Assembly: GCA_017622215.1 (NCBI GenBank)
Contig: JAGARO010000006.1
Location: 1 to 64,000, forward strand
Origin: Clostridia bacterium
GTDB taxonomy: Bacteria; Bacillota; Clostridia; Monoglobales; Monoglobaceae
Reading direction: 5' to 3'
DNA: 64,000 nt
The stretch's first letter is position 1. Each line of letters begins with the position of its first letter. Under the pieces are notes generated by a model. That model saw only the letters and a program-made list of their open reading frames with translations. It made no database searches and was not told the origin of the DNA. Positions 378 through 28,273 of this stretch are shown piece after piece. The translations under genes and the position numbers were made by a program.

Positions 378-660
378 CTATAATATAATACAAATTAAGC
401 CTCCGCTGCCTTCGTTTATAATTCTTGTAAGTGTTTCCCTGAGTTTTATTCTTGCATCCTCAGGCATATGATACAATTTATTATTCAGTCCCTCATTCAC
501 AAGCTCGTGAAGAGATTTTCCGAAAATATTACTCTGCCAGATTGATTTCGGGTCATTTTCAAATTCATTAAGCAGATAATGCACAAGCTCTTCGGACTGT
601 TTCTCTGTTCCTACTATTGGGCTTACCTCTGTTTCAATATCTGCCCTTATCATATGTATT
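378..660 (-). CDS. spoIVA: spoIVA 3' segment (last 91 codons), separated from the 5' segment
   Basis: This is the C-terminal part of the spore-coat morphogenetic ATPase SpoIVA. From codon 653-651 it reads MIRADIETEVSP..., continues through GTEKQSEELV and ends in INEGSGGLICIIL, closely matching the family C-terminus, which in Bacillus subtilis is needed for SpoVM binding and proper assembly around the forespore. The six codons before it (to an ATG at 671) belong to the inserted element, there is no ribosome binding site, and it is unlikely to be translated alone. Joined at the core 652-660/27075-27083 it completes the 5' segment at 27077-28273 in the same frame, giving 490 residues against about 492 in B. 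subtilis. It therefore looks like a gene held in two pieces and not a decayed pseudogene: both parts are free of frameshifts and stops. Confidence 0.95.
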
Positions 661-672
661 ATTCGCTGCAAA
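652..672. other. Left attachment site (core plus inner arm)
   Basis: Core ATATGTATT at 652-660, inner arm CGCTGCAAA at 664-672. The arm is complementary at 8 of 9 positions to TTTGTAGCG (27062-27070) at the other end. In the excised circle the two arms would flank a 16-bp centre symmetrically about the TG dinucleotide of the core, the expected shape of a large-serine-integrase attP. The recombinase stop codon is only 10 bp further in. Confidence 0.85.
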
Positions 673-681
673 ACAATGTGC

Positions 682-2355
682 TTAGCTGCATAGTAACTGA
701 TAATTAAATTTCATTTCATATTCTTTTAAGGCTCTTGTATTTCCTCCCCGTGTTTTTATTACAGTTCCCTCTGTTTTGCCTCCAGGTGCAACCTTTAATT
801 GTATTTTAAGGTCTATTTCATCTTCCTCTTTACTTTTAGCAACTATAATTTTATCAATAAAACTATCAAAAACATTTTTCCCAAGCTCATCAGTAAATTT
901 CATTTCATTTTCAATGCCAAAGCGCAGATTTTCTATTGACTCTTTTTGGTCAAGACTTCTTTTTTCTTCCTCATCAAGTTCCAAGAGCTTATTCTTAAAG
1001 CTTTCTATTTGACTGTTAAAAATACTATTTCGTTGTTCAAATTCTTCATTGGAAAGTCTGTTGTCAAGGGTTAAATCCAACAACTTTTCTTTTTTTAAGT
1101 AAACTGCGTCCATATCTGACTGAATTTTATGCCTTGCTTTTCCAATAGCTTTTGTTCCTCCGCTTTGACTATATATCTCAATCAATTCATTTACTATATC
1201 CTTTTTATCATATAGAATTTTATTATACACCTCACTCATCACAGCATCAATCTCTGTTTTATAAATCAACGGACTTTTACACTTGTTACCGTTTGCGTAT
1301 TCTTTGCAAGTCCAAAGCTCCTTATTCCCTGATTTATATTTATAAACTGTGTGATGGTAACAGGTTTTATGTTCTGCACAAATAAGCTTTCCCGAATATA
1401 AATACTTATTCTGATAGCTTGTCTTATTCTCGCTTGTCATTTTCATGCTTCGCTCTTTTAATTTTTTATTCGCTCTCTCCCATAACTCCTGCGACACAAT
1501 AGGAGGCACAGCATTGTCATCCTCATACAATATCCATTCATCAGGTGAGACACGGATTATTTCATTACTTAAAAAATTTACCTTATGAGTTTTATTTCCA
1601 CAGTAAAATCCTTTATATTTGGGGTTAGTAAGAATTCCCTTTATTGATGAAAATGAAAATGGATTGCCGTTAGAATTCTTAAACCCCAAGTCAGATATAA
1701 CCTTTGCTATTTTTCTTACTCCATAATCCTCGTTTGCATACATATCAAATACTTTTCTTACCATTTCTGCCTCTTCAGGAACAATTATCAATTTGCCTTT
1801 TTCCTTGCGATATCCCCATATGCTGTTATTCCCTAAAACTGTTCCCTTTTTAATAGATTCCCTGAAACCAAATTTTAATCTTTCGGATATTTTCCGCGAT
1901 TCCTCCTGGGCAAGACTTGCCATAGTAGTAAGTCTGAAATCGCAATCTTCATCAATTGTATTTAAATTATCATTTTCAAAAAGAACTGCAACACCATAGG
2001 ATAACAGCTCTCTTGTACAACTTAAGCTATCTAGTGTGTTTCTTGCAAATCTTGATACCTCTTTTGTGCAGATAAGGTCAAATTTCCCAAGCTTTGCATC
2101 TCTCATCATTTCTATAAAGCTGTCTCTTTTGTCAATTTTTGTTCCTGTAAGACCTTCATCCACATAACCTCTTATAAATGTCCAGTTAGGATTTCTCTCC
2201 AACAGATTTTCAAAATAGGTCTTCTGCGCTTCAAGGGAATGCAATTGGTCATACTTATCAGTGGAAACTCTTGCATAGTAAACAACCCTTAAATTAAAAT
2301 CAGAAATTCTTTTATGAAAAGCCTTCATATCCTGTCGTATTTTATATATATTCAC
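682..2355 (-). CDS. Large serine recombinase of the spoIVA element
   Basis: A 557-residue large serine recombinase that should catalyse integration and excision of the element. Residues about 23-170 form the resolvase catalytic domain, with nucleophile Ser31 in YYARVSTD; about 190-290 is the recombinase DNA-binding domain (GYRKEKGKLIIVPEEAEMV...); about 320-375 is a zinc ribbon (CAEH...C...CKEYANGNKC); about 390-500 is charged coiled coil. Length and order are normal for the family that includes the skin recombinase SpoIVCA. The start is a GTG at 2355 with AGGAGAG seven bases upstream. It ends 22 bp from the left core, the usual int-attP proximity. It lies downstream of a 55-codon gene and a SigE-like promoter, so mother-cell expression is plausible but not shown. 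Confidence 0.95.
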   Translation of the reverse strand: MNIYKIRQDMKAFHKRISDFNLRVVYYARVSTDKYDQLHSLEAQKTYFENLLERNPNWTFIRGYVDEGLTGTKIDKRDSFIEMMRDAKLGKFDLICTKEVSRFARNTLDSLSCTRELLSYGVAVLFENDNLNTIDEDCDFRLTTMASLAQEESRKISERLKFGFRESIKKGTVLGNNSIWGYRKEKGKLIIVPEEAEMVRKVFDMYANEDYGVRKIAKVISDLGFKNSNGNPFSFSSIKGILTNPKYKGFYCGNKTHKVNFLSNEIIRVSPDEWILYEDDNAVPPIVSQELWERANKKLKERSMKMTSENKTSYQNKYLYSGKLICAEHKTCYHHTVYKYKSGNKELWTCKEYANGNKCKSPLIYKTEIDAVMSEVYNKILYDKKDIVNELIEIYSQSGGTKAIGKARHKIQSDMDAVYLKKEKLLDLTLDNRLSNEEFEQRNSIFNSQIESFKNKLLELDEEEKRSLDQKESIENLRFGIENEMKFTDELGKNVFDSFIDKIIVAKSKEEDEIDLKIQLKVAPGGKTEGTVIKTRGGNTRALKEYEMKFNYQLLCS

Positions 2356-2370
2356 GTCTTTTCTCTCCTA

Positions 2371-2538
2371 TTATTTTCTAATTCCCTGCTTAATTAGAAC
2401 TTCCTTAGCATCAAAATACATCTGTTCTGAAATTATATTTTTTTCAAAAAGCTTTTCGTTTATGTAGATTTTTACTTCGTTATTAAAACGATTATAATTG
2501 TTTATTAATTTTTCATCGTTTTTAATCTGACATGACAT
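2371..2538 (-). CDS. Small protein before the recombinase; candidate directionality factor
   Basis: A 55-residue protein beginning MSCQIKNDEKLINN and ending KEVLIKQGIRK. Start at 2538 is chosen because AAGGCAGG lies 8 bases upstream; longer versions back to 2598 lack such a site and would begin at or upstream of the predicted transcript start. The C-terminal half (LFEKNIISEQMYFDAKEVLIKQG) resembles the short SHOCT-like helical motif of small proteins often encoded before serine recombinases in clostridial elements. It ends 15 bp before the recombinase, so the two are probably co-transcribed. Serine integrases need a small partner for excision (SprB in SPbeta is about this size); this is the best candidate here, by position and size only. 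Confidence 0.6.
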   Translation of the reverse strand: MSCQIKNDEKLINNYNRFNNEVKIYINEKLFEKNIISEQMYFDAKEVLIKQGIRK

Positions 2539-2596
2539 TTGACATACCTGCCTTTTTTCAATAATTTGTTTGTACATAGATATGAATGTTACTTTC

Positions 2597-2625
2597 AAAA
2601 TATGTATACAGTATTGATACTATTG
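2597..2625 (-). promoter_or_regulatory. Possible SigE-type promoter for the recombinase unit
   Basis: On the minus strand CAATAGT (2619-2625) and CATATTTT (2597-2604) are 14 bp apart, resembling the mother-cell SigE pattern kmATAtt-14-CATAcaaT. The -10 keeps CATA and the final T. The transcript would start near 2590, just before the 55-codon gene. A/T-rich DNA makes chance matches common, so the call rests partly on context. Confidence 0.45.
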
Positions 2626-2650
2626 ACAAATAATTAAGTCATGATATAAT
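2623..2650 (+). promoter_or_regulatory. SigA promoter of the nucleotidyltransferase-fold gene
   Basis: TTGACA (2623-2628) and TATAAT (2645-2650), both perfect, with a 16-bp spacer. Reads right into the gene at 2696. Its -35 overlaps the -35 of the SigE-like promoter on the other strand, so the two directions may exclude each other. Confidence 0.8.
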
Positions 2651-2695
2651 TTTAAGTGTGTAAATTCACATAAAATTATGAATGGAGAGTTTTCA

Positions 2696-3874
2696 ATGAA
2701 TTTGGAGTTATACGTTTCATATATTACTGAATTAATAAGTTCTTTCTTGAAAAACGAAAATATAAAACCTTTACCGTCAGGTATTGACATTAACTATTTT
2801 TTTTCATTTTGTAAATTTCACAGGCTTGAAAACATTGTTTATCTTGCCTTGAAAAACACTGATATTCCCAAAGAATTGAGAAGCTTATTTGAAAAATCAT
2901 ACTTTGTTTCTATTAATCACATGGCAAAACAACAGTATTATATGGAAAAGGTGGAAAAGGCATTTGAAGATGCAGGTATAGACTATTTTGTCATGAAAGG
3001 AAAAGAGCTGTCAGGTCTTTATCCTTCAGAAGACATGCGTATATCCTCTGACTTTGATATGTATATCGGAAATGAAAAAGCTGAGCTTGCACGAGATATT
3101 ATGGTAAATCTTGGTTTCACAATCAAGGACTACATGGATGATGACGGGCATGACCAATATGTGATTGATAAAACAATACTCTGTGAACTCCACAGAGTCC
3201 TCATTCAAAGCGATTTTCCATGGAAAAATGAATGTAATAATATAGCTGAGCGTGTGATTAAATGTGAGGGCAACAATCACCGTTATAAAATGAGGATTGA
3301 GGATTTTTATATCTATAATCTTGCACATGCTGCAAATCATATTAAAACTGCAGGCGTGGGCATTAGAATTTATACAGATTTATGGCTAATCTATACTAAA
3401 TACCAGGACACATTCGACTATTCATATCTTAATGAAAAACTTCGATTAGCAAATCTTACAAGATTTGAAGAATGTTCAAGGGAACTTTATCTATATTGGT
3501 TTGAGGGAAAAACACCTATTGATTCAACTGTTATGGCTATGGCCATATTTGTTGCCCAAAGTGGCTGGATGGGAACTTACAACCAGTACAGCTCAGCAAA
3601 GCTTGCGCAGGATGCCAAAGATAATAGTTCTTCCACGGCTACAAAGATAAAAAGCTATTTGGATATTATATTTCCTACCTATAAAAACCTAGTAAAGAGA
3701 TATCCAAATGCAAAAAAACATAAAGTACTTATTCCGTTTTACTACATCTACAGAATTTTTAAATCTGTATTTGGAAAGGATAAGGGTGCAAAAAGGGTAA
3801 TTAATGAAATAACTGCTGGCGATTTAGAAAAGGGTAAATATATACTTAGACTTAAAAAAGATATGGGACTTTAA
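2696..3874 (+). CDS. Nucleotidyltransferase-fold protein (NTP_transf_5 type)
   Basis: A 392-residue protein of the uncharacterised nucleotidyltransferase group (PF14907 type). The signature is around residues 100-130: YFVMKGKELSGLYPSEDMR followed by SSDFDMYI, where the DFD acidic pair would bind metal. Such proteins occur in capsule clusters and in some peptide-modification loci, with unproven substrate. The start at 2696 has GGAGAG six bases upstream; an earlier in-frame ATG at 2678 lies before that site. It is the only plus-strand gene in the element, with its own SigA promoter, and converges on the polysaccharide operon with a shared terminator. No lasso-peptide partners are present, so a role in glycan or precursor transfer is more likely, as inference. 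Confidence 0.75.
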   Translation: MNLELYVSYITELISSFLKNENIKPLPSGIDINYFFSFCKFHRLENIVYLALKNTDIPKELRSLFEKSYFVSINHMAKQQYYMEKVEKAFEDAGIDYFVMKGKELSGLYPSEDMRISSDFDMYIGNEKAELARDIMVNLGFTIKDYMDDDGHDQYVIDKTILCELHRVLIQSDFPWKNECNNIAERVIKCEGNNHRYKMRIEDFYIYNLAHAANHIKTAGVGIRIYTDLWLIYTKYQDTFDYSYLNEKLRLANLTRFEECSRELYLYWFEGKTPIDSTVMAMAIFVAQSGWMGTYNQYSSAKLAQDAKDNSSSTATKIKSYLDIIFPTYKNLVKRYPNAKKHKVLIPFYYIYRIFKSVFGKDKGAKRVINEITAGDLEKGKYILRLKKDMGL

Positions 3875-3882
3875 TTTTAAAT

Positions 3883-3920
3883 AATAAAAGATGCTGCCAA
3901 AATTGGCAGCATCTTTTATT
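3883..3920. terminator. Bidirectional terminator between convergent genes
   Basis: A perfect 17-bp stem (3883-3899 with 3904-3920) with a 4-nt loop, GC-rich at the top and A/T-rich at the base, giving T runs on both strands. It ends the plus-strand gene at 3874 and the polysaccharide operon at 3919. Confidence 0.9.
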
Positions 3921-4341
3921 ATTTAATTTTTTCTAATGTTTCCTTTAAAAAGGTTGAGGACGTTCCCGCAGTATACGGAAAATATACTATCTCTGCACCA
4001 CGTTCTTTAAATTTTGGTTCAAGACTTAAAAACAATTCTGTACCCTTCCAGTCATCCCCAACAAACATCTTATTAAACTTATATTTTTCCAGGGCACTTA
4101 GCTTATCTCTGTTTTCTTGCGGAACCACCATATCAACATATTTAATCGCCTTAACAATCTCCGCCCTTTCTTCATAGCAAATCACAGGGGTTTTATTCTT
4201 GTATTGTTGCACAAGTTCATCTGTACTTACCGCCACTATTAGAAAATCACAATTTTCCTTTGCTCTTTTTAATATATTTAAATGCCCTATGTGAAATAAA
4301 TCAAAAACGCCGGCAGTATATCCTATAATTTTTTTATCCAT
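3919..4341 (-). CDS. tagD: Glycerol-3-phosphate cytidylyltransferase
   Basis: A 140-residue cytidylyltransferase making CDP-glycerol from CTP and glycerol-3-phosphate. HIGH is at residues 17-20 (FDLFHIGHLNIL) and TAGTSSTFLK near residue 125 corresponds to the RTxGISTT motif. Length is close to TagD (about 130). It is the last gene of the operon, just after the flippase, and a TagB/TagF-like transferase (5867-7024) in the same operon should use its product. Together they suggest glycerol-phosphate decoration of the polymer. GAGGG lies upstream of the ATG. Confidence 0.9.
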   Translation of the reverse strand: MDKKIIGYTAGVFDLFHIGHLNILKRAKENCDFLIVAVSTDELVQQYKNKTPVICYEERAEIVKAIKYVDMVVPQENRDKLSALEKYKFNKMFVGDDWKGTELFLSLEPKFKERGAEIVYFPYTAGTSSTFLKETLEKIK

Positions 4342-4346
4342 ATTTT

Positions 4347-5870
4347 TTACCCTCTTTGTTTTTTCATTAGAATATTTTTTGCTATTAACTTTAAATAACT
4401 CATTTCATTTGTTCTTGCATATATCACTAAGAATACACTATTTGATATAACAAATGCTACAATAGCTTTAAATATTACAGAAATAATTTCATCACCTGGA
4501 ATCACTTCTGTTACATAAAAACAAAGGGCTCCTGTTACAAATAGTATAACTAATTTTACTAAATAATCAATAAAATAATACTTAGGACTCGACTGCAGAC
4601 CTTTTTTAAATACAATATACGGATCGAACCATACATTAGTGGTAGCTCTTGCAATTATAGTTCCCCACAATATACCTTCAAGTCCAAAACGCTTTCCAAG
4701 AGCAACAGATGCTATAATATTAATTACTGCAGATATAATAGGTCTTATTTTACCATAAACAAATAATCCCATAGTCTGTCTGTAATTAAACGGTGCAAAC
4801 AACATCCCGGCAACATACGCATTTAAAACAATAACAAACAACTCTCTGTATGATAATAAATATTCTTTACCAATCCAAACCGTTATAAAGGGATTTGATA
4901 CACAGAATATACATATAGAACAGACTCCATACAACCAGAAAGTTGCCAGGTTTATGACATTAAACATTTCTATTTTCTTTTCCTTAGTTTCTACTGCATT
5001 GAGATTTCCAATACTTGCTGTTAAATTCCCAAAAATAGTTGACAAAAAGCCAGTAACCGATGTACTTATCAAATGATAATTAGAATATAAACCTACCTTA
5101 ACGATGCCTACAAAAGCAGATATTAATATATTATCAGTTGAATTAAGTGCCAAAGTACCCACTTTATAAATCATAAGAGATTTAATATTTTTTATAAGAC
5201 TATTCTTTTCTTCAGTGTCCAACCCTTTAACATTTTTTGTTCTCAACTCAGGAAAAAGCTTCCCTGCAACAATTGCAGTTGCTATATTTTGACAAATAAC
5301 TGTACATATCTGTACAATTAAATAGACAAAATAATTTTTAAAGACAACCAGTCCCACAATCTGCAACGCCATCATAAGAATTGAGAAAATATAGGATAAC
5401 TGACTAATTATATAATTTTTCTGACTCGCTGTTATAAGAGTATTCCTATATACAAACAAATAGGAAGATGCAGAATTAAACACATACAGTATGTAAATGA
5501 CAGTTATATGCGGTATTTTATCAAAATCCTTGATTATATATCGCAAAAATGGAGCAAGAGACATTCCAACAATAAGAACAAATACAAAAATTCCTGAATA
5601 TATTTTCTTATATATCGCCATTAAACTGCTTATTTTATCATTGTCATTTTCTGCAATTGGCTTATACAAGCTAAACATAATAGCTTGACCCACACCTAAC
5701 TCTGCAAGAGATAATAGAGATAAAATGTTGCCAAACAGTCCGCTTACACCTAAATATGTTGAACCTAATACATTTATAAATACTGTTCTTGTTATAAAAT
5801 TTGCAAATAACAACAACATCTGACCAATAAGACCGGTAGTTATATTTTTAATAGAATTCTTTATTCTCAT
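4347..5870 (-). CDS. Wzx-type polysaccharide flippase
   Basis: A 507-residue membrane protein with about 12-14 hydrophobic helices of the MOP/MviN-like polysaccharide biosynthesis family. It should flip the undecaprenyl-diphosphate-linked repeat unit to the outer face of the membrane. The N-terminal VFINVLGSTYLGVSGLFGNILSLLSLAELGVGQAI stretch is the characteristic start of this family, and there is a charged loop around residues 200-225. It overlaps the CDP-glycerol transferase gene before it by 4 bp. It is the only flippase in the operon. Confidence 0.9.
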   Translation of the reverse strand: MRIKNSIKNITTGLIGQMLLLFANFITRTVFINVLGSTYLGVSGLFGNILSLLSLAELGVGQAIMFSLYKPIAENDNDKISSLMAIYKKIYSGIFVFVLIVGMSLAPFLRYIIKDFDKIPHITVIYILYVFNSASSYLFVYRNTLITASQKNYIISQLSYIFSILMMALQIVGLVVFKNYFVYLIVQICTVICQNIATAIVAGKLFPELRTKNVKGLDTEEKNSLIKNIKSLMIYKVGTLALNSTDNILISAFVGIVKVGLYSNYHLISTSVTGFLSTIFGNLTASIGNLNAVETKEKKIEMFNVINLATFWLYGVCSICIFCVSNPFITVWIGKEYLLSYRELFVIVLNAYVAGMLFAPFNYRQTMGLFVYGKIRPIISAVINIIASVALGKRFGLEGILWGTIIARATTNVWFDPYIVFKKGLQSSPKYYFIDYLVKLVILFVTGALCFYVTEVIPGDEIISVIFKAIVAFVISNSVFLVIYARTNEMSYLKLIAKNILMKKQRG

Positions 5871-7024
5871 AACAACTCTCTCTTCTTAACAATTAAATCT
5901 ACAATTGTTTTACATGCAATTCCCTTCTCAAAAGAACCAATTTTATCCAAGAAAGAACATATATCTGATTGATACTTCTTTTCATTAAATTTTTCGATTG
6001 CATCGAAAATTTCACTTTCAGTATATGCTTTTAAAAAAGGAAGCTCTTTTATGTTAAAATATAACGCTCTCTCTTTTTTTGTATAATCCTCAAAATCAGG
6101 CATGTACAAAATACACGGTTTTTTAATATACATCACATCAAACATACACGAAGAATAATCTGTAACCATTAAATCGCTTACAGCAATCAATTCCTGCATA
6201 TCACTATAGCTACACACATCAATACACACGTCGGAAATATTATGTTCCTGAATTTTAAAAATCAGGTTGGGATGCAGTCTATATAAAACCTTCCATTTTC
6301 CTCCCATAGATTTTTCGCATACATCCACAAGTTTTTCAAAATCAAAATTATACTCATAATTATTATCAGCACGAAATGTAGGTGCATATAATATATATCT
6401 ATATTTATCAGAAAGCTTTATTTTTTTTAATATATCTCGTCTGTCGCTTTGCCGTAACAAAAAATCAATTCTTGGTGTACCGCATTCTAAGACACATCCA
6501 TCATACCAAAAGGATTCTTTAAATATGCGGCTACTGAAATCACATCCTGAAATTATATAATCTATTTTTTTACTATCGCTTTTTGCTGCCTCAATATATC
6601 TTTCTGGCAGTGAATTTTCTGCATCTTTTTCTATGGTTTTAAGTCTTATGGAACTATGCCATGTCTGAATATATATCTGATTCTTACGTTTATGCCAAAA
6701 ATATGCGTCACTTGTTCTCGCATTGCATATAACAAAACGTGCTGTATGTAACTCATATAGATATTGCTTTGAAAAATACCTTACAATACGAACGCCCTCA
6801 GGAATATCTGAAGGTACTGGTAAATCAGCATCAATTACCCATACAATATCAAATTCCCCAGGATAATTTTCCAAAATATATTCTGCAATATACTTAGGAT
6901 TGCAACCATATGATTTGAAACTATTGCTCCATATAATAATCTTATTCTTTTTTATAGGAATGGACGAGTACATTTTTATTAAAAATTTATGTCTTAGCCT
7001 TTTTACCATATTAACTATGTTCAT
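5867..7024 (-). CDS. CDP-glycerol glycerophosphotransferase (TagB/TagF family)
   Basis: A 385-residue GT-B enzyme of the CDP-glycerol glycerophosphotransferase family (PF04464). Typical motifs are QTWHSS near residue 140, YAPTFRADNN near 213, LHPNL near 253 and VTDYSSCMFD near 290, the last forming the CDP-glycerol site. It would transfer glycerol phosphate from CDP-glycerol to the repeat unit or a carrier-linked acceptor. It lacks the long N-terminal region of polymerising TagF, so a single transfer as in TagB, or a short chain, is possible. TagD, which makes the donor, is two genes downstream. Confidence 0.88.
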   Translation of the reverse strand: MNIVNMVKRLRHKFLIKMYSSIPIKKNKIIIWSNSFKSYGCNPKYIAEYILENYPGEFDIVWVIDADLPVPSDIPEGVRIVRYFSKQYLYELHTARFVICNARTSDAYFWHKRKNQIYIQTWHSSIRLKTIEKDAENSLPERYIEAAKSDSKKIDYIISGCDFSSRIFKESFWYDGCVLECGTPRIDFLLRQSDRRDILKKIKLSDKYRYILYAPTFRADNNYEYNFDFEKLVDVCEKSMGGKWKVLYRLHPNLIFKIQEHNISDVCIDVCSYSDMQELIAVSDLMVTDYSSCMFDVMYIKKPCILYMPDFEDYTKKERALYFNIKELPFLKAYTESEIFDAIEKFNEKKYQSDICSFLDKIGSFEKGIACKTIVDLIVKKRELL

Positions 7025-7026
7025 TT

Positions 7027-7974
7027 TTATACCCTCATAATATGTGAATTTGAGATGTTTAATCTTTTTAACAACTTAACTATTAGCACTTCTGAAACAA
7101 ATACAACAATTGTAACAAAAACTGCTTTCAAAAAACCCTCGGCATGCCATACATCATATCCATTCAAAAAAGAAACTGACAAATATTGCAAAAATCTTAG
7201 CAAGAAATAATGAGTGCACATTACATTCATGCTATATGCCCCGCATTTTTTTAAAAGATCAAATATAATGTTATTTCTTATAACAAGCTTTGCAATTAAA
7301 AAAATTCCAACAACACCTGACACACCAGCTATCAAAGCAATTATATAATTGCCAAAATAGTTACCATACATAGAAATTCTATTATTCAATTGGCTCCCCA
7401 ATATACTTACAAAAATCATTGGAACAGCTAAAAAATATTGTGTCTTTGATATTTGTATTTTAGACAATAAAACCCCAATACCAAAAAATATTATTGCATT
7501 AGGCAAAATATTTAATCCCATAGGTAAGGAATCGAATATACCATAATAACTACAAAACACCATTAAACACAGTATAGTTATTAATAAATGTTTTTTATTA
7601 CTTAATGCTTGATAGAACATTCTCGACCAGAATAACACTACCAAAAACCAAACAGGAGCATTCCAACTTACTCCATTTAGAAAAAACATCTTCTCTATAC
7701 CTTGTGTAAAAGTGTACTCTCCCATCAACAAGCTAAAAATAATTGCCACCGCATTCCAAAAAGCATACGGCAAAAGGAGAGTCTTTGTACTTGTTTTAAA
7801 CTGTTCACCTAGACTTGTTTTTTTCTTAAATACATAACCTGATAGAAAAAAGAAAAGAAACATATGAAAAGAATAAATCCACTTTTCCAGATAAATGCAT
7901 GGATTTAAATGTCCAAATACAACTAAGATAATTCCTATTCCTTTTAAAACATCGATTGATATGTTCCTCTTCAT
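7027..7974 (-). CDS. Membrane acyltransferase 3 family protein
   Basis: A 315-residue integral membrane acyltransferase (PF01757 type, fucose-4-O-acetylase-like) with about 10 hydrophobic segments. It begins RNISIDVLKGIGIILVVFGHLNP, whose (R/K)...D..K...I..V..GH pattern includes the likely catalytic His. It should O-acylate a sugar of the surface polymer using acyl-CoA. GAGAGGA precedes the start. A second, soluble acetyltransferase (16390-16944) is in the same operon, so two different modifications are likely. Confidence 0.87.
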   Translation of the reverse strand: MKRNISIDVLKGIGIILVVFGHLNPCIYLEKWIYSFHMFLFFFLSGYVFKKKTSLGEQFKTSTKTLLLPYAFWNAVAIIFSLLMGEYTFTQGIEKMFFLNGVSWNAPVWFLVVLFWSRMFYQALSNKKHLLITILCLMVFCSYYGIFDSLPMGLNILPNAIIFFGIGVLLSKIQISKTQYFLAVPMIFVSILGSQLNNRISMYGNYFGNYIIALIAGVSGVVGIFLIAKLVIRNNIIFDLLKKCGAYSMNVMCTHYFLLRFLQYLSVSFLNGYDVWHAEGFLKAVFVTIVVFVSEVLIVKLLKRLNISNSHIMRV

Positions 7975-8002
7975 TACTATCCTCTCATACCATACGTATT
8001 AT

Positions 8003-8974: not shown

Positions 8975-8979
8975 ATCTT

Positions 8980-12688: not shown

Positions 12689-12699
12689 ACTACCCCTCC

Positions 12700-13356: not shown

Positions 13357-13362
13357 AATTTA

Positions 13363-15475: not shown

Positions 15476-15505
15476 TTCGTCTCACTATCATTAAACTTTT
15501 ATTTA

Positions 15506-16378: not shown

Positions 16379-16389
16379 AATATATTACC

Positions 16390-17669: not shown

Positions 17670-17695
17670 TTAACCCCTCCATTAATTATGTATGA

Positions 17696-18706: not shown

Positions 18707-18730
18707 ATTATACCCTCGCTTTTACTATTA

Positions 18731-20855: not shown

Positions 20856-21505
20856 TTTTCATCAAACCCCATTTCAAGTCTTAGCACTTCAAATGCTTCT
20901 GCATATTTTCTTCCTATTTCATATCCTCTGTACCCGCATCTGCTGTGAACACCTGTTACCCAGTCCTCTGCACCAAATTTATTGTATTCACTTTTATGTT
21001 CTCTTAATGAATCAATTTTTTTATCAATTGTTGACTCTATATCTACATACAACTGCGGTCTGAAAGCTACATATGATCTTCCAGATGGAGATATTGGTTC
21101 ATAAAAAAACACAGTGTTCTTTCGCCTTGCAGCGGCAATTGTCGCATTGCTCACACCAACATGTGCCTGATGTGTATCAAACGGATGATGTGTAAAAATT
21201 ATGTCAGGGTTAAACTCGCTAATTCTTAGATCAATTGCGTTAACTACATCTGACTGAAACGGAATATCTTTTGTGGGAAAATCAAGTATTTCAATCTTTT
21301 CTATGCCTAATGTATGTAATGCATTCAATCCTTCCTGCACTGCATCTTCATCAGAACGTTGTACATTTCCTTCTTTATTTGTATATCCCGATTTGCTCAT
21401 TATTAAAACACACACATCGTGTCCTGATTCTACCGCCTTTGCCAAGGTTCCCCCGCAAGCTATTTCCACATCGTCCAAATGTGCACCTACTGCTAAAATT
21501 TTCAT
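20840..21505 (-). CDS. PIG-L family zinc deacetylase
   Basis: A 221-residue zinc deacetylase of the PIG-L/LmbE family. AHLDDVE at residues 8-14 supplies the metal ligands and catalytic Asp, and HHPFDTHQAH near 107 the third ligand. Members remove the N-acetyl from GlcNAc-containing molecules or bacillithiol/mycothiol precursors. It starts after GGGGAGG with 8-bp spacing and overlaps the next gene by 16 bp. Here it may expose an amine for the ATP-grasp ligases; that link is inference. Confidence 0.9.
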   Translation of the reverse strand: MKILAVGAHLDDVEIACGGTLAKAVESGHDVCVLIMSKSGYTNKEGNVQRSDEDAVQEGLNALHTLGIEKIEILDFPTKDIPFQSDVVNAIDLRISEFNPDIIFTHHPFDTHQAHVGVSNATIAAARRKNTVFFYEPISPSGRSYVAFRPQLYVDIESTIDKKIDSLREHKSEYNKFGAEDWVTGVHSRCGYRGYEIGRKYAEAFEVLRLEMGFDEKCSIL

Positions 21506-21567
21506 GTTTTATCCTCCCCATAAATTATTTTCAAATCAATACATGTAGAAACTTTATTAATCTAAAT

Positions 21568-22668
21568 TCAAAACTTTTTTTCATACAATGACTGCATTTC
21601 ACAAAAGACCGCTTGATTTCCAAATGAACAAACTTTATTTGCATTATATTCACCCATTGAAATCAAGTTTTTACTCAGTACTTTTTCAATTGCTTTTTTA
21701 CAATCAGCAACATTGCGTGGTTCAAAAAAGGTCCCTCCACTTTCATCAATTAAATCAGTATTGCCACGAATTTTTGTTACTACACATGGTAACGAACTTG
21801 CCATTGCCTCCATCAAGGAGACAGGCAATCCCTCACGAGTTGATGGAAAAACAAAAATATCAGCTATGGCACATAATTCTAAAATATCTTTTCTGTATCC
21901 AAGTAACCTTACTCTATCACCAAGATCTAATTCTTTTATGATACCATCTAAATATTGATGCAAATTGCCTTCTCCTGCTACTAAATAATACACATTATCC
22001 ATATCTTTTATTGCCCGTATTACTGTTTCATGATTCTTAAATATATCAAGCTCTCCAACCGATAATAACAATTTTTTGTTTTCAGGTATATTCATTTCCT
22101 TTTTCTTAGCTTTTACATCTATACTTATATTCTTAAACTTATCAACATCTATACCTACCCCCGGTACATAAGAAATCAATTTTGCTTTTATTTTCTTCCT
22201 CGCAAAGTTATAATCTTCTTTATTTATAGTTATAAGCACATCGGTTAACCTAGCACATAATTTTTCAACGGGATAATACATCATCCAATTCTTAAAAGGT
22301 GCTCCCTTGTAAAAATGGAAACCATGTGCTGTATAAAAAACTTTTGTACCTTTTTTTCTTGTCTTTATACACGCAATCCTTGTACACATAGCCGCAATAG
22401 GAGTATGACAATGAACTATGTCATAACTATTTTCTTCTACAATCTTTTTAATTTGTTTTATTGCTTCTATATTTCCGATATTTAAAGGAGAGCGAACACA
22501 TGAAAGCGGATATATTTTACATCCCCAATTTTCATAGCAATCCGAAACCATACTTATATTTTGATTAGTCGCAATATGCACCTCATTGCCTTCGTCCAAC
22601 AATCTTCTAATAAAAGCCCTAAAAAAATTCATTGTTGTCCCAACGGTGGTAACATACAATATTTTCAT
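21568..22668 (-). CDS. GT4 glycosyltransferase
   Basis: A 366-residue GT-B family 4 glycosyltransferase (EpsD/PglA-like). N-terminal domain: ILYVTTVGTTMNFFRAFI and VHCHTPIAAM, then YTAHGFHFYKG. C-terminal domain: LLSVGELDIFKNHETVI, VAGEG, VFPSTREGLPVSLMEAMA, where EGLP...E is the donor-binding EX7E motif. ATG 22668 with AAGGAG upstream is favoured over a GTG at 22689 that overlaps that site. As the GT nearest the initiating transferase it is a candidate for adding the second sugar. Confidence 0.9.
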   Translation of the reverse strand: MKILYVTTVGTTMNFFRAFIRRLLDEGNEVHIATNQNISMVSDCYENWGCKIYPLSCVRSPLNIGNIEAIKQIKKIVEENSYDIVHCHTPIAAMCTRIACIKTRKKGTKVFYTAHGFHFYKGAPFKNWMMYYPVEKLCARLTDVLITINKEDYNFARKKIKAKLISYVPGVGIDVDKFKNISIDVKAKKKEMNIPENKKLLLSVGELDIFKNHETVIRAIKDMDNVYYLVAGEGNLHQYLDGIIKELDLGDRVRLLGYRKDILELCAIADIFVFPSTREGLPVSLMEAMASSLPCVVTKIRGNTDLIDESGGTFFEPRNVADCKKAIEKVLSKNLISMGEYNANKVCSFGNQAVFCEMQSLYEKKF

Positions 22669-22695
22669 ACTCTCTTTCTCCTTTGACACACTCTA

Positions 22696-23655
22696 TTATG
22701 CGATTATAACCTCATTATATTTCATCATATATACGTCATCTTTATAAGACCCTATATTGGGATTATTGACATTACCATTTATATTATTAACAATAAGTTT
22801 TATATGATTTATACCACATTCATATGCGTGAGGATATCCGCCTCCAAATCTCGGATTCACCTCAGAGATGTAATACTCCCCACTAATATCAAAAATATCA
22901 ATATCAATCTGACCTAAAAATCCAAATTCCTTACAAAATGTATTTATAAGCTCAAACAGTCTCTCATCCTTAAACGATACCGCCTTATCGGTTTCTCCCG
23001 CTCTCATTACTAGTTTCTTCTTCGTAAAAACAGACACAAGTTCACCGCTTATCATATCAATATAGCAATCAGCGCCAATTTCCTGTCCATCTAAAAATTC
23101 CTGTATCATCAAGTTATCATTATGAGAAAACAAACACTCAAGTGTTTCCTCGTCATAGACCTTAGAGATTTCAATACTCGCACTTCCACATATCGGCTTT
23201 ACAAATACAGGGTAAGAGATTTGTCCTAATTTTTCATCCTTAATAAATTCTTCCTTGTCCACATATGTTTTAGCACAGTTGTATCCATGTTCTTTAAGCC
23301 ACAAATACATATCGTATTTATTTAATGTTTTCTCACATATATTATAATTAGACTCAATAACCATGACGCCCAAAGCTTCAAATTCATTCTTGTGCTTTGC
23401 AATCAAAGATAATTCAGGATCAATAAGCGATAAAACTCCCTTTATTTTTTCTTTCTTACAGATATCAAAAATGACATTAATGTATCCAGGTTCTGTTATT
23501 CTTGGTACTATGTAATAATTATCAGCCTCATAAATTGCAGGCGCAATCGAACTACAATCGGTTACTATAACCCTTCCTTTTCCACCAAGTTCCCTTTTAA
23601 AATACTGTACAATTTTATTTCTTGACCCTGCGCTAAGTATTAAAATATTTGTCAA
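22696..23655 (-). CDS. ATP-grasp ligase (CarB/PylC-like), first copy
   Basis: A 319-residue ATP-grasp enzyme. Opening NILILSAGSRNKIVQYF, ATP-binding KPICGSASIEISKV near residue 152, QEFLDGQEIGADCYID near 188 and SEVNPRFGGGYPHAYECG near 275, giving the metal-binding E..N. Related to the 18731 gene but shorter and divergent. It overlaps the PLP gene before it by 4 bp. It probably ligates an amino acid-like unit to a sugar or carrier; substrate unknown. Confidence 0.85.
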   Translation of the reverse strand: MTNILILSAGSRNKIVQYFKRELGGKGRVIVTDCSSIAPAIYEADNYYIVPRITEPGYINVIFDICKKEKIKGVLSLIDPELSLIAKHKNEFEALGVMVIESNYNICEKTLNKYDMYLWLKEHGYNCAKTYVDKEEFIKDEKLGQISYPVFVKPICGSASIEISKVYDEETLECLFSHNDNLMIQEFLDGQEIGADCYIDMISGELVSVFTKKKLVMRAGETDKAVSFKDERLFELINTFCKEFGFLGQIDIDIFDISGEYYISEVNPRFGGGYPHAYECGINHIKLIVNNINGNVNNPNIGSYKDDVYMMKYNEVIIA

Positions 23656-24575
23656 CTTAAAGCCTCCAATCCATCAAAAAACAACGGTGTTCCCCCTGTA
23701 TTTAAAAACAATATGTTTTTATTTTTAATTCCATTTTCTTCTATATATTTCTTCATTCCCCAAAAAGCTTTTCCCGTATATGTAGCATTCAATGCTATTC
23801 CATCAAAAAAAAGTACATCTTTTATGGTTCCTAAAATATCACTGTTATACTCTCCATATCCTTCACATATATATTTATCTATAAAAATAACATCTGACTC
23901 ATAATTTATATTACTATTAAAATATTCCTTTAGTGAATCAATTATCACTTGTCTTCCGTAAGGATTTTTTCTAGCAATACTAATTCCTACAATCTTTTGT
24001 GTTATATTTTTATTCTTTATTTTCCCAGCAATCAGCCCTGCCTGAGTTGTTCCTGTTCCTGAAGCAAGGAAGATATAATCAAAACAAATATTATTTTCTT
24101 TTTCATACTGTAAAATTTCTTCATACGCATTTACATACGCCTGTGTTCCTAAATTGCCGTGTCCTCCACCCTTGATAAAATACGGGGTGTATCTTTTTTT
24201 TAAGTCTAACATTGTTTTTTCAATGGTATCTGCCACACAATCTAATGGTGTTTTTACAATGCTAGCTCCAAACAAACCAACCATTTTACTATTATATGTC
24301 TCTTCATAACCTTCTTCTGGCGAAATTATATAACACTTTATATTATTTAAAGCCGCCATATTCGCAATAATCCTGCAATGGTTTGAACTGCTACTCCCAT
24401 ATGTTACTACCACATCACTATTATTGCTTCTTAAATCACCAAAAAAAAGTTCGGCTTTACGAACTTTGTTTCCACCAAAGCAAAACGGTAACAAATCCTC
24501 TCTCTTAACATAAAATCTATTATCATTATATTCTTCCTTAAGTCTTGTTATTGGAGTTTCAAACAACATTTTCAT
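23652..24575 (-). CDS. ACC deaminase/D-cysteine desulfhydrase family PLP enzyme
   Basis: A 307-residue fold-type II PLP enzyme. PLP lysine in FGGNKVRKAE (about residue 37), SSSNHCRI near 63 and LASGTGTTQAGL near 168 as phosphate-binding loop, as in D-cysteine desulfhydrase and ACC deaminase. It overlaps the GNAT gene by 17 bp and the ATP-grasp gene by 4 bp, so it belongs firmly to the operon. Such an enzyme is unusual in a polysaccharide cluster; here it may process a D-amino acid or act as a beta-replacement enzyme. Confidence 0.85.
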   Translation of the reverse strand: MKMLFETPITRLKEEYNDNRFYVKREDLLPFCFGGNKVRKAELFFGDLRSNNSDVVVTYGSSSSNHCRIIANMAALNNIKCYIISPEEGYEETYNSKMVGLFGASIVKTPLDCVADTIEKTMLDLKKRYTPYFIKGGGHGNLGTQAYVNAYEEILQYEKENNICFDYIFLASGTGTTQAGLIAGKIKNKNITQKIVGISIARKNPYGRQVIIDSLKEYFNSNINYESDVIFIDKYICEGYGEYNSDILGTIKDVLFFDGIALNATYTGKAFWGMKKYIEENGIKNKNILFLNTGGTPLFFDGLEALS

Positions 24576-25089
24576 ATACCTCTTTTAAAATACCATAAAC
24601 ATACCGGTTAACTTTTTTCCCGTCGCATATCAAATCTTGTCTAATTAAACCTTCCTTTTGAAAGCCCAGCTTTTCAAAAAGATTTTGAGCAGAAATATTT
24701 TCTTCTTCTGTATACAAAAAGATTTTATTCAATCCTAATGTGTTAAAAGCATAATTAATCAACAACATACTTGCCTTTTTTGCAATTCCACAACCCTTAA
24801 ACTCTTGTTCTCCTATGCATACATAATATTCCGCTTTTTTATTTTTATTATCTATGTTTAGCAATCCAATTAAACCAACTGGAATACCCTCATACTCAAT
24901 AACAGCGTCAAACCGTGTATCCAAATCCTTTATTCTATGAAACCACATTGTTGTTTTATCATATTCCAGTGGCAAGTCATAGTGAAGATACTTATTGTTA
25001 TCAGTATTATTTATCCACTCTACCTTCTTTGGTATATCCTCCAAACAAAACTTGCGCAAAGAAACATTCCCATCTCTTAAAATAATCAC
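24559..25089 (-). CDS. GNAT N-acetyltransferase (RimJ/PseH-like)
   Basis: A 176-residue GNAT acetyltransferase. The acetyl-CoA loop is in GEQEFKGCGIAKKASMLL and the C-terminal NLFEKLGFQKEGLIRQD pattern is typical of RimJ/RimL and PseH-like enzymes. It directly follows a PglC-like transferase and a DegT aminotransferase, so it probably N-acetylates the amino sugar made by the latter, as PseH and PglD do in their pathways. A tailoring role on an amino acid is an alternative. Confidence 0.85.
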   Translation of the reverse strand: MIILRDGNVSLRKFCLEDIPKKVEWINNTDNNKYLHYDLPLEYDKTTMWFHRIKDLDTRFDAVIEYEGIPVGLIGLLNIDNKNKKAEYYVCIGEQEFKGCGIAKKASMLLINYAFNTLGLNKIFLYTEEENISAQNLFEKLGFQKEGLIRQDLICDGKKVNRYVYGILKEVYENVV

Positions 25090-25091
25090 TA

Positions 25092-25718
25092 TTAAATCCT
25101 TTCTTTTTGTATAGTTCTTTCCTCGTACAACTTTCCAACAGTATGTTGTTCTCCCACTAAAATATCAGCACCATTTGCAGCTTTGAACACTGTACGGAAA
25201 ATAATTTTAATGTCCAATAAAAACGATATATTATTTACATATTCCAAGTCATACTTAAATTTTTCTTCCCATGTAATAGCATTTCTGCCATTGACCTGTG
25301 CAAGCCCCGAAAGTCCCGGTCTTACGTCATGACGATGTCTTTCCTCTTCAGTATAATAATCGAGATATTCAACCAGAAGAGGTCTGGGGCCGACTACACT
25401 CATATCGCCCTTTAGGATATTAAACGCCTCAGGAAGCTCATCAAGGCTTGTCTTTCTTAAAAGCCTTCCAAACTTTGTAAGTCTTACATCATCAGGAAGA
25501 AGATTTCCATTTTCGTCCTTTTCGTCTGTCATCGTCCTGAACTTATAAAGATTAAAAATCTTCTCATCTTTACCAGGACGTACCTGCTTAAACAAAACAG
25601 GACTGCCAAGCTTTATCTTCACAAGGACTGCAACAATTATGTAAAGCCAGCCAAAGACTATCAGCGCTGCCAGGGCACACACTATGTCAAAAAGCCTTTT
25701 TCCATATTTTTTATACAC
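25092..25718 (-). CDS. Initiating sugar-1-phosphate transferase (PglC-like)
   Basis: A 208-residue monotopic phosphoglycosyl transferase (PF02397). It has one N-terminal membrane segment (about residues 12-32), then VLFKQVRPGKDEKIFNLYKFRTM, TSLDELPEAFNILKGDMSVVGPRP (catalytic DE near residue 94) and RPGLSGLAQVNGRN. Lacking the large N-terminal region of WbaP, it resembles PglC, which uses UDP-diNAcBac. It would load the first sugar phosphate onto undecaprenyl phosphate. Second gene of the operon, sharing a base with the aminotransferase stop. Confidence 0.93.
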   Translation of the reverse strand: MYKKYGKRLFDIVCALAALIVFGWLYIIVAVLVKIKLGSPVLFKQVRPGKDEKIFNLYKFRTMTDEKDENGNLLPDDVRLTKFGRLLRKTSLDELPEAFNILKGDMSVVGPRPLLVEYLDYYTEEERHRHDVRPGLSGLAQVNGRNAITWEEKFKYDLEYVNNISFLLDIKIIFRTVFKAANGADILVGEQHTVGKLYEERTIQKERI

Positions 25719-26842
25719 TAAAACAACCCCTTAATTATACTAATTACCTCTTTTTGTTGCTCCGCTGTCATTTTTACATCTGACGGCAGACACAATCCTC
25801 TTTTGAATATATCTTCACCTACATTATCGCCATTAACCATTATATAATCATTTCCAGAATAAACCGGCTGCATATGCATAGGCTTCCATATTGGTCTTGA
25901 CTCAATATTTTCCGTTTCTAAAGCAAGTCTTATTTTTTCAGGGGTTACAATATGTAACGCTTCCTCATCAATTATCATACAGCTGAGCCAGAAGTTTGGT
26001 TCAGAATTCTTTTCATCATAAGGATTCATACTAACAGGAAGCCCCTCAAAGCCCTCCTTATATCTCATATAAATCTCTTTCTTCTTCGCTATATGTTCTT
26101 CAAGGTGCGGGAACTGTCCCCTTACCACGCCTGCGATTACATTACTCATACGATAGTTATAGCCAATCTCTTCATGCTGGTACCAGGGAGCATTCTCTCT
26201 TGACTGAGTTGACCATTTTCTTGCCTTATCAGCACTTTCCTTACAGTCTGTTAGAAGCATTCCGCCTGAAGAACCTGTTATAATCTTATTTCCATTAAAT
26301 GAGATTGCATTGAAATTACCAAAATCACCTGTCTGTTTTCCCTTATAGCTTGCGCCAAGAGATTCTGCAGCGTCCTCAATTATCATTGCACCGTGCTTTT
26401 TACAAATCTTTGTGATTTCATCAATCTTTGCAGGAGTTCCGTAAAGGTGGGCATAAACCACAAGCTTTACATCAGGATAGATTTCAAAAGCCTTTTCAAG
26501 TGCCGCAGGGTCCATATTCCATGTGTCATACTCTGTATCAATAAATACAGGCACACCCCCCTCGTAAACAACAGGATTAACTGTTGCGGCAAAGGTCATA
26601 TCTGAGCAAAAAACCTTGTCCCCCGGTTTCACACCGGCAAGTTTAACTGCCATATGTAGTGCCGCTGTGCCCGCTGAGAGACCAACTGCGTACTTACAGC
26701 CCACCTTTTCACAGACAAGTTTTTCAACCTCGTTAATATTTTCCCCAACTGTGGACATCCAGTTTGTTTCATAAGCCTCTCTTACAAAGTCCATTTCTTC
26801 CCCGTGCATTGTGGGTGTAGAAAGCCATATCTTCTCCTTCAT
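25718..26842 (-). CDS. DegT/DnrJ/EryC1 sugar aminotransferase
   Basis: A 374-residue PLP aminotransferase of the DegT family, acting on a nucleotide-linked keto sugar (PglE-like). GLSAGTAALHMAVKLAGV binds PLP phosphate, IEDAAESLGASYKGKQTG holds the ring-contacting Asp, and the Schiff-base Lys is in SFNGNKIITG near residue 185. First gene of the operon. Start 26842 has GAGGGG seven bases before it; the ATG at 26857 does not. A 4,6-dehydratase (PglF-like) to supply its substrate is not in the window and must be elsewhere. Confidence 0.92.
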   Translation of the reverse strand: MKEKIWLSTPTMHGEEMDFVREAYETNWMSTVGENINEVEKLVCEKVGCKYAVGLSAGTAALHMAVKLAGVKPGDKVFCSDMTFAATVNPVVYEGGVPVFIDTEYDTWNMDPAALEKAFEIYPDVKLVVYAHLYGTPAKIDEITKICKKHGAMIIEDAAESLGASYKGKQTGDFGNFNAISFNGNKIITGSSGGMLLTDCKESADKARKWSTQSRENAPWYQHEEIGYNYRMSNVIAGVVRGQFPHLEEHIAKKKEIYMRYKEGFEGLPVSMNPYDEKNSEPNFWLSCMIIDEEALHIVTPEKIRLALETENIESRPIWKPMHMQPVYSGNDYIMVNGDNVGEDIFKRGLCLPSDVKMTAEQQKEVISIIKGLF

Positions 26843-26921
26843 AATTAAACCCCTCATATTTCAAATTTTCATATAAAAAAATCAAAAACTTATATGAAAA
26901 CTATTAAACTTATACATATTC

Positions 26922-26950
26922 ATTATACCACCGCACATTTTGCTTGTCAA
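26922..26950 (-). promoter_or_regulatory. Consensus SigA promoter of the polysaccharide operon
   Basis: TTGACA (26945-26950) and TATAAT (26922-26927), both perfect, with a 17-bp spacer, on the minus strand. The leader runs from about 26915 to the ATG at 26842. It lies inside the element, so operon and promoter leave together on excision. I see no riboswitch or antiterminator-like structure in the short leader. Confidence 0.9.
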
Positions 26951-27001
26951 CCTTTATATACCGATATATATACATATATTTACGTTGACTTTTCACACAA
27001 A

Positions 27002-27041
27002 AATATGCACCATTAAATTATCACATTTAATGGTGCATATT
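27002..27041. repeat. Perfect 17-bp inverted repeat just inside the right end
   Basis: Arms 27002-27018 and 27025-27041 are perfect complements with a 6-nt loop. It lies 34 bp inside the right core, over the last codons of the aberrant spoIVA reading frame and upstream of the operon promoter. It could terminate transcripts of the 5' spoIVA segment (a weak T run follows on the minus strand) or bind a dimeric regulator or accessory recombination protein. Confidence 0.7.
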
Positions 27042-27061
27042 ATATATTTATAACACTTGGG

Positions 27062-27083
27062 TTTGTAGCGGTTAATATGTATT
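27062..27083. other. Right attachment site (inner arm plus core)
   Basis: Inner arm TTTGTAGCG at 27062-27070, core ATATGTATT at 27075-27083. To the right, spoIVA codons ...GCTCCGTCA continue. The circle junction would place this arm opposite CGCTGCAAA (664-672) with the core TG at the exact centre of symmetry. A non-palindromic central dinucleotide is what sets directionality for serine integrases. Confidence 0.85.
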
Positions 27084-28273
27084 GACGGAGCCGATGCCTT
27101 AAGCTTTACGCCGAAACGACTGCCCTGTTTTACAATTTCAGGCTCCTCCAGAGTTAAGTCTGTTATTTCAGGAGTTACTATACCGTAACCTGTTCTTTCC
27201 AAGTCGCTTAAGGCTACCGCAATCTTATCGTACTCCTTCTTCATTCCCGCAAGGTCCATAAAGAGTCTCATTATTTCGCCCTCGTTTTCAGCCTTAAAGC
27301 CTGTTTGTTCATCAATCATTCTGTAAAACAGTTCTTTCGGAGTATTAAGATGAAGTATAGCTGTGCCGTCAGCAGGATTTACAGAAACATATCCGTTATC
27401 ATCAAAAAAATCTTCCTTTTCAAGATTTTCTGCAAAAGCTTTTATATCTGAAATCTTATTTATTTCGCCTGTGGCATTGACTATTGCCTCTCTTATTCCC
27501 TTTTTCAGCCAGTTGTCATCATCAAGCATCTCAATCCAGTCAGGAATCTCAATTCCTATCTCTTTAACAGGGAATTCAAAAAGCATTTTAGCCATTATAT
27601 CTTCAAGGGCATCCGCTGTCATTTCAAGGCAGTTTACAGGAATTACTGACACGCCGTATTTTTCTTCCATTTTCTCTGCAAGATTTATTGTATTTTCGCT
27701 ATATGGTTCAGCACTGTTTAAAAGAACTACAAAAGGCTTTCTTATATCCTTAAGTTCTCCTATAACCCTTTCTTCCGCCTCTTCATATTCATCCCTTGGA
27801 ATATCAGTTATACTTCCGTCAGTAGTAACTACAATTCCAACTGTGGAATGGTCATTTATTACCTTTCTTGTACCAAGTTCTGCGGCGTCCCTAAACTCCA
27901 TTGGCTTATCAGACCAGGGGGTCATAACCATTCTTGGATTTTCATCCTCAATCTGTCCCATGGCACTGTCAACTACATAGCCTACACAGTCAATCATCCT
28001 CACCTTTGCGTGAGCATCCTCGCCCACAGGAATTTCAACTGCTCTTTCAGGAACGAACTTTGGCTCTGTTGTCATTATTGTTCTTCCCCCTGCACTCTGG
28101 GGAAGCTCATCCATTGCCCTGTTCCTCTTATACTCATTTTCAATATTAGGAATTACAACTGTATCCATAAACCTTTTTATAAAGGTGGATTTTCCTGTTC
28201 TTACAGGGCCGACAACTCCTATGTAAATATCCCCCTGGGTCCTTCCTGCTATATCCTTATAAATATTATTCAT
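27077..28273 (-). CDS. spoIVA: spoIVA 5' segment (codons 1-399), interrupted by the element
   Basis: SpoIVA is the ATPase that polymerises on the forespore surface as the base of the spore coat. Residues 1-399 are here: Walker A GPVRTGKST (22-30), DELPQSAGGRTIMTTEPKFVP, VRMIDCVGYVVD, TPWSDKPM, and DEPEIVKQGSRFGVKLKASAPSIH at the break. Past the break the frame runs into the element and adds 27 unrelated residues, stopping at 26993. Without excision the 426-residue product would keep ATP-binding regions but lack the C-terminal assembly domain. The ATG at 28273 has GGAGGA seven bases upstream. Completed by codons at 653-378. Confidence 0.96.

Follow-up and report, generated by a model that had tools for sequence, protein, structure and literature searches.

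Can the gene for SpoIVA, the base protein of the spore coat, still serve a cell in which it has been cut in two by 26 kb of other DNA? The question is raised by a 64-kb stretch from a Clostridia bacterium of the Monoglobaceae (contig JAGARO010000006.1, positions 1 to 64,000; hereafter the window), in which spoIVA is distributed over two open reading frames (ORFs), 26993–28273(-) and 378–671(-). Here we describe the element that separates them, its relatives at the same position in other genomes, and the features that, as read from assembled sequence, strongly indicate developmental excision.

The split gene and its recurrence

The spoIVA gene of the window is split by an inserted element whose precise removal restores the reading frame, as the original prediction held. 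Both parts carry AATACATAT on the minus strand at the break, and 26,423 bp of inserted DNA lie between these two cores. Joining the parts in silico at the core yields 1473 nt, encoding 490 aa and a stop codon without loss; the joined protein reads ...SAPSIHMIRADIETEV...GGLICIIL, with ...KASAPSIHMIRADIETEV... across the junction. Neither half contains a stop codon, and the break parts the conserved SpoIVA_C domain (PF20439) from the rest of the protein. The element interrupts the coding sequence of a sporulation gene, with a short direct core on both sides, and, as predicted, it encodes a large serine recombinase (LSR) with intact domains beside one end, the LSR stop codon lying 21 bp inside the core. 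A second intact spoIVA, which had been named as grounds for abandoning the idea, was sought in the window genome (G000; 1.18 Mb in 14 contigs, 93.6% complete), and only the two pieces and no further copy were found there.

Uninterrupted genes do exist among relatives. A congener (G001) has an intact spoIVA, 97% identical over 490 aa, with TCACTCCACCTCATA in place of the ATACAT-bearing sequence. Among 29 intact loci the site was readable in 26, with ATACAT in 12 and a different sequence in 14. The predicted 9-bp core is indeed present at both window junctions, but the part common across elements is ATACAT, mostly ATACATAT. The 9-mer alone is no rarity (five matches versus 1.39 expected; 3 of 100 shuffles reach five) and, not being significant, was not used as evidence by itself. 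The significance of the core derives from its placement and frame, from its repetition in other genomes, and from the element-side arms that adjoin it. These arms form an inverted repeat centred within ATACATAT, between ATAC and ATAT, at an identical offset in all 11 elements tested (G282 and G399 were omitted as near relatives of included ones). The window arms match over 16 positions, which none of 2000 shuffles equalled; no shuffle in 2000 was as good in 10 of the elements, and five were in G393.

Matches to spoIVA were found in 93 of 118 relatives, 280 of 391 class genomes and 34 of 38 family genomes (the sets overlap). Reading the junctions placed an interruption at the same site (type 1) in at least 14 genomes from nine genera. 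Both ends were read in 12 of them (G000, G003, G012, G030, G067, G107, G136, G181, G243, G282, G393, and G399) and the 3' junction alone in G016 and G314; the counts for the class are minimum values, and a set of 14 genomes with multiple or weak matches was followed up. These hosts include Ruminiclostridium papyrosolvens C7 (G282), R. sufflavum DSM 19573 (G107), the metagenome-assembled genomes (MAGs) RGIG5265 from sheep colon (G393) and RGIG2094 from goat colon (G067), and G181, presumably R. cellulolyticum H10. Where one contig spans the element, its length is 26.4, 21.9, 39.4, 5.9, 6.1, 6.3, 6.3, or 24.0 kb. The in silico join is in frame in all 12 cases tested, the window and 11 relatives, that of G393 meeting a contig end. 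A second type of interruption, found in G031 and G042 (both ends) and in G035 (3' end only), has a site about 10 codons further on, a core ACAGAGGT, and a different LSR.

Several other candidates were set aside. Five genomes with more than one spoIVA piece (G081, G154, G165, G177, and G373) were excluded because the pieces were contig ends, frameshift-like neighbours or duplicates, and three with single pieces and no junction seen (G018, G328, and G198) were left uncounted. G358 was likewise uncounted: its contigs L061 and L062 stop exactly at the spoIVA core, with about nine bases of overlap and no element DNA seen. Mixed excised and integrated DNA might be the source of these contig ends.

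Recombinase family and candidate excision switch

An orthologous LSR occurs in 10 of the 14 same-site genomes (eight whole and two, G016 and G136, cut by the contig) and always adjoins the 3' junction. The window LSR is 74% identical to that of G393, 59% to that of G067, and 48% to those of G107 and G181. When named genomes were scanned with the LSR alignment, 46 loci came up. Among L070–L095 (26 loci, LSR identity 39–72%), of which L070–L073 are G393, G067, G282, and G107 again, 25 showed a part of spoIVA beside the LSR (24 by tblastn, L085 by reading), and L094 showed none. Among the hosts of the 25 loci are Ruminiclostridium, Flavonifractor, Pseudoflavonifractor, Oscillospiraceae, Lachnospiraceae, Roseburia, and two Bacilli MAGs. 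In the remaining 20 loci, most of whose matches are short or distant (L099, 40% over about 300 residues, L100, 55% over 148, and L115, 63% over 43, come nearest), no spoIVA was found in the flanks examined, which extended up to 3 kb.

In a tree of 66 LSRs, built without eight near-duplicates and without L085, the window, L070, and G067 sequences form a clade (support 100/100) inside a 19-row clade (96/96) made up of 16 type-1 LSRs, two from other spoIVA loci, and one from a viral contig. The type-1 label changes four times on this tree. The 19-row clade does not include the two Bacilli LSRs (L086 and L087); the targeting of spoIVA may thus have had more than one origin, or have been retained on more than one occasion.

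In L081 (~1162–4641, Lachnospiraceae MAG) the spoIVA element is minimal, at about 3.5 kb, and has an LSR and a candidate recombination directionality factor (RDF; see below), with both gene halves in the locus. In L085 (~4630–4690), from an Oscillospiraceae MAG that presumably originates from termite gut, a type-1 junction is followed about 10 codons on by an apparent type-2 junction, so two elements seem to lie back to back in one spoIVA. The type-2 LSR ORFs (L045:3597–5471(+) and L047:5492–7411(-)) cross the junction in frame into the SpoIVA C-terminal domain, PF20439 lying at 549–624 of the 624-aa L045 ORF; the C-terminus of this LSR would change upon excision.

The best candidate for a directionality factor is the small ORF beside the LSR. 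The window copy has no Pfam or PHROG match, and in a Pfam search of five copies the sole match was in G181, weak and below the cut-offs (SHOCT_2 and GvpG). These ORFs share a motif of approximately INxxLFExxxITEEMYxxAK and lie beside or upstream of the LSR. By motif scan it was recovered from 10 of 18 genome entries; of the others, several do not cover the region upstream of an LSR, and G031 has a similar small ORF by eye.

A promoter-like site precedes the candidate RDF. A two-box model of the sigma-E type was trained on 34 upstream regions of spoIVA, the window included, and on both strands of the 64 kb only two sites reach 16 bits or more, one before spoIVA and the other before the candidate RDF/LSR operon. 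The latter site scores 19.8 bits in the window, 16.5 in G067, 19.3 in G393, and 20.3 in G003, and in each case none of 300 randomised sequences was as good. Based on these sites, the candidate RDF is possibly driven by sigma-E.

Proposed excision in the mother cell and its alternatives

We consider it probable that the island is a non-phage sporulation intervening element in spoIVA, excised in the mother cell during sporulation; the original prediction of a sporulation intervening element in spoIVA is supported as the best reading. As far as is known, spoIVA is used only by the mother cell. In the proposed mechanism, the island's own LSR would insert it at a fixed spoIVA attB, ATACAT within the codons for S-I-H-M-I-R. 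During growth the island would stay in place, with its surface-glycan operon expressed from its own sigma-A promoter and spoIVA silent. Once sigma-E becomes active in the mother cell, a promoter of the spoIVA type would also fire the directionality factor and the LSR, which together would excise the island at the core and restore spoIVA in frame. The excised circle would be lost with the mother cell, while the forespore would retain the island.

Selection on the detached part of the gene is consistent with such a cycle. In four Ruminiclostridium species with a 6-kb element, the nonsynonymous rate (dN) of the 3' part is 0.000–0.005 and the synonymous rate (dS) 0.225–0.870 (four of six pairs); for the 5' part, dN is 0.005–0.021 and dS 0.181–0.431 (four of six pairs). 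A dN near zero against such dS indicates that the detached 3' part is still used, as a useless fragment would not stay so. Several wider pairs, including the intact pair G074/G331, are saturated at silent sites, where the ratio is uninformative. The 5' parts (12) and 3' parts (14) taken from interrupted genomes are all free of stop codons. Moreover, only a split spoIVA was found in G181. If this genome is that of C. cellulolyticum H10, sporulation can be efficient although spoIVA is split, a strong argument for excision: heat survival of the wild type is given as 35.7 ± 7.3% in the accessible part of PMC3936895. Given that related islands are found at this position in many spore-formers, among them probably one with a high spore yield, the window island is likely to be removed in the dying mother cell as the spore forms.

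A number of observations weigh against this reading. Excision is deduced from assembled sequence. The element DNA examined beside the 3' junction of G314 (~11.9 kb), G030 (~0.8 kb), and G012 (~0.5 kb) gave no LSR match, other ORFs taking the LSR position there, whereas the element DNA at the 3' junction of G003 (~0.2 kb) is too short to judge; the LSR of the three may have been lost or moved, or another enzyme may be used, and the full layout is not kept by every interruption. (In G314, L063:1–11834, the att arm is present beside this stretch of about 11.9 kb without an LSR match of the family.) The candidate RDF motif was found in only 10 of the 26 named loci. Lower scores were obtained for the sigma-E-type site of the four 6-kb Ruminiclostridium elements (13.4–15.8 bits; 0–7 of 300 randomised sequences as good), of R. 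sufflavum (11.0 bits; 15 of 300), and of six named loci (9.1–15.2 bits; 0–37 of 300, L075 having 37), all from a model which fits Ruminiclostridium spoIVA itself poorly (13.8–14.3 bits) and gives five of its training genes less than 10 bits.

Two further points of this kind concern sporulation in the window organism. No recognisable gene for a small acid-soluble spore protein (SASP) was found in its genome, of which about 6% may be missing, unlike 28 of 38 family genomes, which have a SASP match. In addition, spoIIID, another mother-cell gene, is also split: its pieces lie on two contigs (L158:9208–9351(+) on C14 and L157:~14654–14805(-) on C13), have GTACA in common, and when joined encode an 87-aa SpoIIID. 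A 547-aa LSR (L157:14777–16420, -) overlaps the start of the spoIIID 3' part, with an ArdC-like gene beyond. Based on these two points, the window lineage could be losing sporulation, and decay in this organism itself is a live, if minor, alternative.

Related observations were made in other genomes. In the congener G001 (L160:1381–1476(-)), the SASP reading stops mid-contig after ...FKMEAANEV. Two weak SpoIIID matches and no strong one, the pattern given by the split gene in the window genome, occur in G002, G097, G107, G109, G181, G335, and G391; G107 and G181 combine the weak pair with a split spoIVA. The spoIIID gene of G181 was not found within the 400 kb searched (140–540 kb).

The alternative that survives best, unlikely as we judge it, is an ordinary LSR-mobile island for which spoIVA is a chance attB; excision would be low and undirected, only island-free cells would sporulate, and no developmental control would exist. 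A sigma-A-like promoter (TTGACA..TATAAT, by eye) precedes the LSR of G107 and of three of the four 6-kb Ruminiclostridium elements, where the LSR is thus not sporulation-specific, and intact relatives with the attB core exist, as the 12 of 26 readable sites with ATACAT attest. However, chance insertion does not account well for the sigma-E-type sites before the candidate RDF/LSR operon, nor for the persistence of the element in four related species while dN of the 3' part stays near zero. The high spore yield (accessible part of PMC3936895) also misfits rare loss, if G181 is that strain.

There is a smaller chance that the insertion is dead, so that the window organism makes no normal spores and its spoIVA is a decaying pseudogene. 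The failure to find a SASP gene, the split spoIIID, and the small genome of 1.18 Mb point this way. Against it, both halves are free of stop codons and join exactly, and omega between the window and the intact congener is 0.029 for the 5' part and 0.019 for the 3' part, though this branch may largely predate the insertion. The window genome also has spo0A, a match to the sigK model that passes the cut-off, and another strong match that falls short of it and is probably sigE. A dead insertion in one organism would, moreover, leave the other genera unexplained.

Slimmer still is the chance that the halves are translated separately and work as a split protein without excision. The 3' part, which follows immediately after the LSR, offers an ATG at the core and, a few codons earlier, a TTG, but no ribosome-binding site precedes it by eye, the break parts SpoIVA_C from the rest, and the LSR, att arms, and core would be useless. 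Least credible is an assembly chimera: the window genome is a 14-contig draft, yet the same architecture in one-contig genomes (G181 and G243) and in named isolates makes the join artefact that the original prediction had listed as a risk very unlikely.

Cargo, comparison with known systems and significance

The island carries the LSR, the small ORF, an NTP_transf_5 gene, and an apparent surface-glycan cluster of about 23 genes (Table 1). This cluster also encodes Wzx- and Wzy-like proteins, neither of which reaches its Pfam cut-off, pyruvyl and acyl transferases, ATP-grasp and pyridoxal phosphate (PLP) enzymes, and others. The hairpin upstream of it should separate truncated spoIVA transcripts from the glycan operon. 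In 4-kb blocks, the GC content is 0.30–0.33 inside the element versus 0.39–0.41 in the right flank.

Table 1. Coordinates of the split spoIVA gene, the inserted island and associated features in the window
Feature	Position	Strand	Remarks
spoIVA 3' part, C-terminal ~92 codons, core to stop	378..660	-	
Core repeat at spoIVA 3' junction ("attR" as used here)	652..660	-	AATACATAT
Element-side arm at 3' junction	661..686	-	...CACATTGTTTTGCAGCG...; inverted copy of 5'-junction arm
LSR, 557 aa	682..2355	-	Resolvase and Recombinase domains; zinc ribbon below cut-off
Candidate RDF, 55 aa from chosen ATG	2371..2538	-	Listed ORF 2371–2598; motif recurs beside other spoIVA LSRs
Sigma-E-type promoter-like site before candidate RDF/LSR operon	2569..2605	-	ACATATT-N14-CATATCTATGTACAAA; 19.8 bits
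NTP_transf_5 nucleotidyltransferase-like gene	2678..3874	+	Divergent from LSR operon
Surface-glycan operon	3919..26857	-	DegT aminotransferase, sugar transferase, glycosyltransferases
Perfect sigma-A promoter before glycan operon	26922..26950	-	TTGACA-17-TATAAT; 12/12 positions
17-bp hairpin with A/T tail, between truncated spoIVA and glycan operon	27002..27041		
Element-side arm at 5' junction	27050..27074	-	...CTACAAACCCAAGTG...; inverted match to other arm
Core repeat at spoIVA 5' junction ("attL" as used here)	27075..27083	-	AATACATAT
spoIVA 5' part, codons 1 to ~399, through core	27075..28273	-	ORF continues to 26993
Sigma-E-type promoter-like site before spoIVA	28296..28331	-	21.8 bits; training-set member

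A phage origin was rejected, as none of the 26 element ORFs matched a phage structural, lysis or replication family in Pfam; the LSR is the only phage-type gene of the element (three window ORFs were tested against PHROGs). No phage or plasmid record with an LSR match reaches 60% identity. Viral contigs yielded 35 relatives of the LSR, none more than 47% identical; no spoIVA was found in the DNA examined there, and a strict att-arm pattern, one that would miss the window's own arm too, gave no match. The spoIVA-targeting intervening element is widespread, non-phage and, in the window, loaded with glycan cargo.

Cargo varies among the relatives. The G067 element also contains a glycan cluster (10 ORFs scanned, nine with matches), with DegT adjoining the 5' junction and NTP_transf_5 adjoining the LSR end. 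The small Ruminiclostridium element of G181 (L052:3014–6895) encodes AgrB, a GHKL sensor kinase, and a dockerin-bearing GH53 protein, a quorum-sensing-like cargo inside a sporulation gene. Other elements have different cargo genes, as judged from ORFs with no family scan.

The prediction named sigK, spsM, and spoVFB as genes known to be interrupted; these are known cases, but the list was incomplete, since spoVR, gerE, and yabG also belong to it according to the accessible parts of PMC4191935, PMC5595907, and PMC10747680. It also knew of no case in spoIVA, and our literature search, with most subscription papers outside its reach, likewise recognised no report of one; among genomes, however, the case is widespread and not isolated. 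The skin elements of C. difficile and B. subtilis resemble the spoIVA element in bearing an LSR and in splitting a mother-cell sporulation gene, but their target is sigK, while the window element has a glycan operon as cargo and no phage structural genes seen. C. difficile skin pairs a constitutive LSR with a sigma-E-controlled factor, as far as the available text of PMC5025042 describes it, and the Ruminiclostridium promoter layout resembles this scheme. The gin element in gerE of B. cereus ATCC10987 is likewise a non-phage island, similar in size at 28.6 kb, with a serine recombinase and the small accessory factor GirX; it differs in having three recombinases, another target gene, and cargo mostly without known homologues (PMC5595907, sections available). 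SPbeta (spsM, B. subtilis), vfbin (spoVFB), vrin (spoVR), and yin (yabG, C. botulinum) follow the same principle of precise excision, but they are phage or phage-like, have other target genes, and are each described in one or a few strains in the accessible parts of PMC4191935 and PMC10747680, whereas spoIVA interruptions occur in at least nine genera.

Integrative polysaccharide islands carried by serine integrases offer another comparison. They too have surface-glycan cargo on an LSR-mobile island, but the spoIVA island lies inside a developmental gene that excision would restore. It shows how a surface-glycan locus can occupy a gene that is not needed in growth. A broader proposal, to which we give about even weight for and against, is that genes used only in the mother cell serve quite generally to park vegetative loci acquired from elsewhere: a spoIVA-targeting LSR group, with an excision switch copying the spoIVA promoter type, would have spread through the Clostridia into Bacilli, and several islands per lineage, such as those in spoIVA and spoIIID of the window genome, would amount to multi-locus programmed genome elimination, never in the germ line.

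If G181 is H10, it would provide a culturable system for direct tests of programmed DNA excision. The accessible part of PMC3533761 calls SpoIVA universally present in bacilli and clostridia, and it lists spoIVA of C. cellulolyticum H10 among genes omitted from the annotation, with no mention of a split in that part. The split gene is a likely explanation for this old annotation gap. It is also a warning that gene-presence surveys may score spore-formers as spoIVA-negative. The recurrent split of spoIVA adds a central gene to the list of those that are developmentally interrupted.

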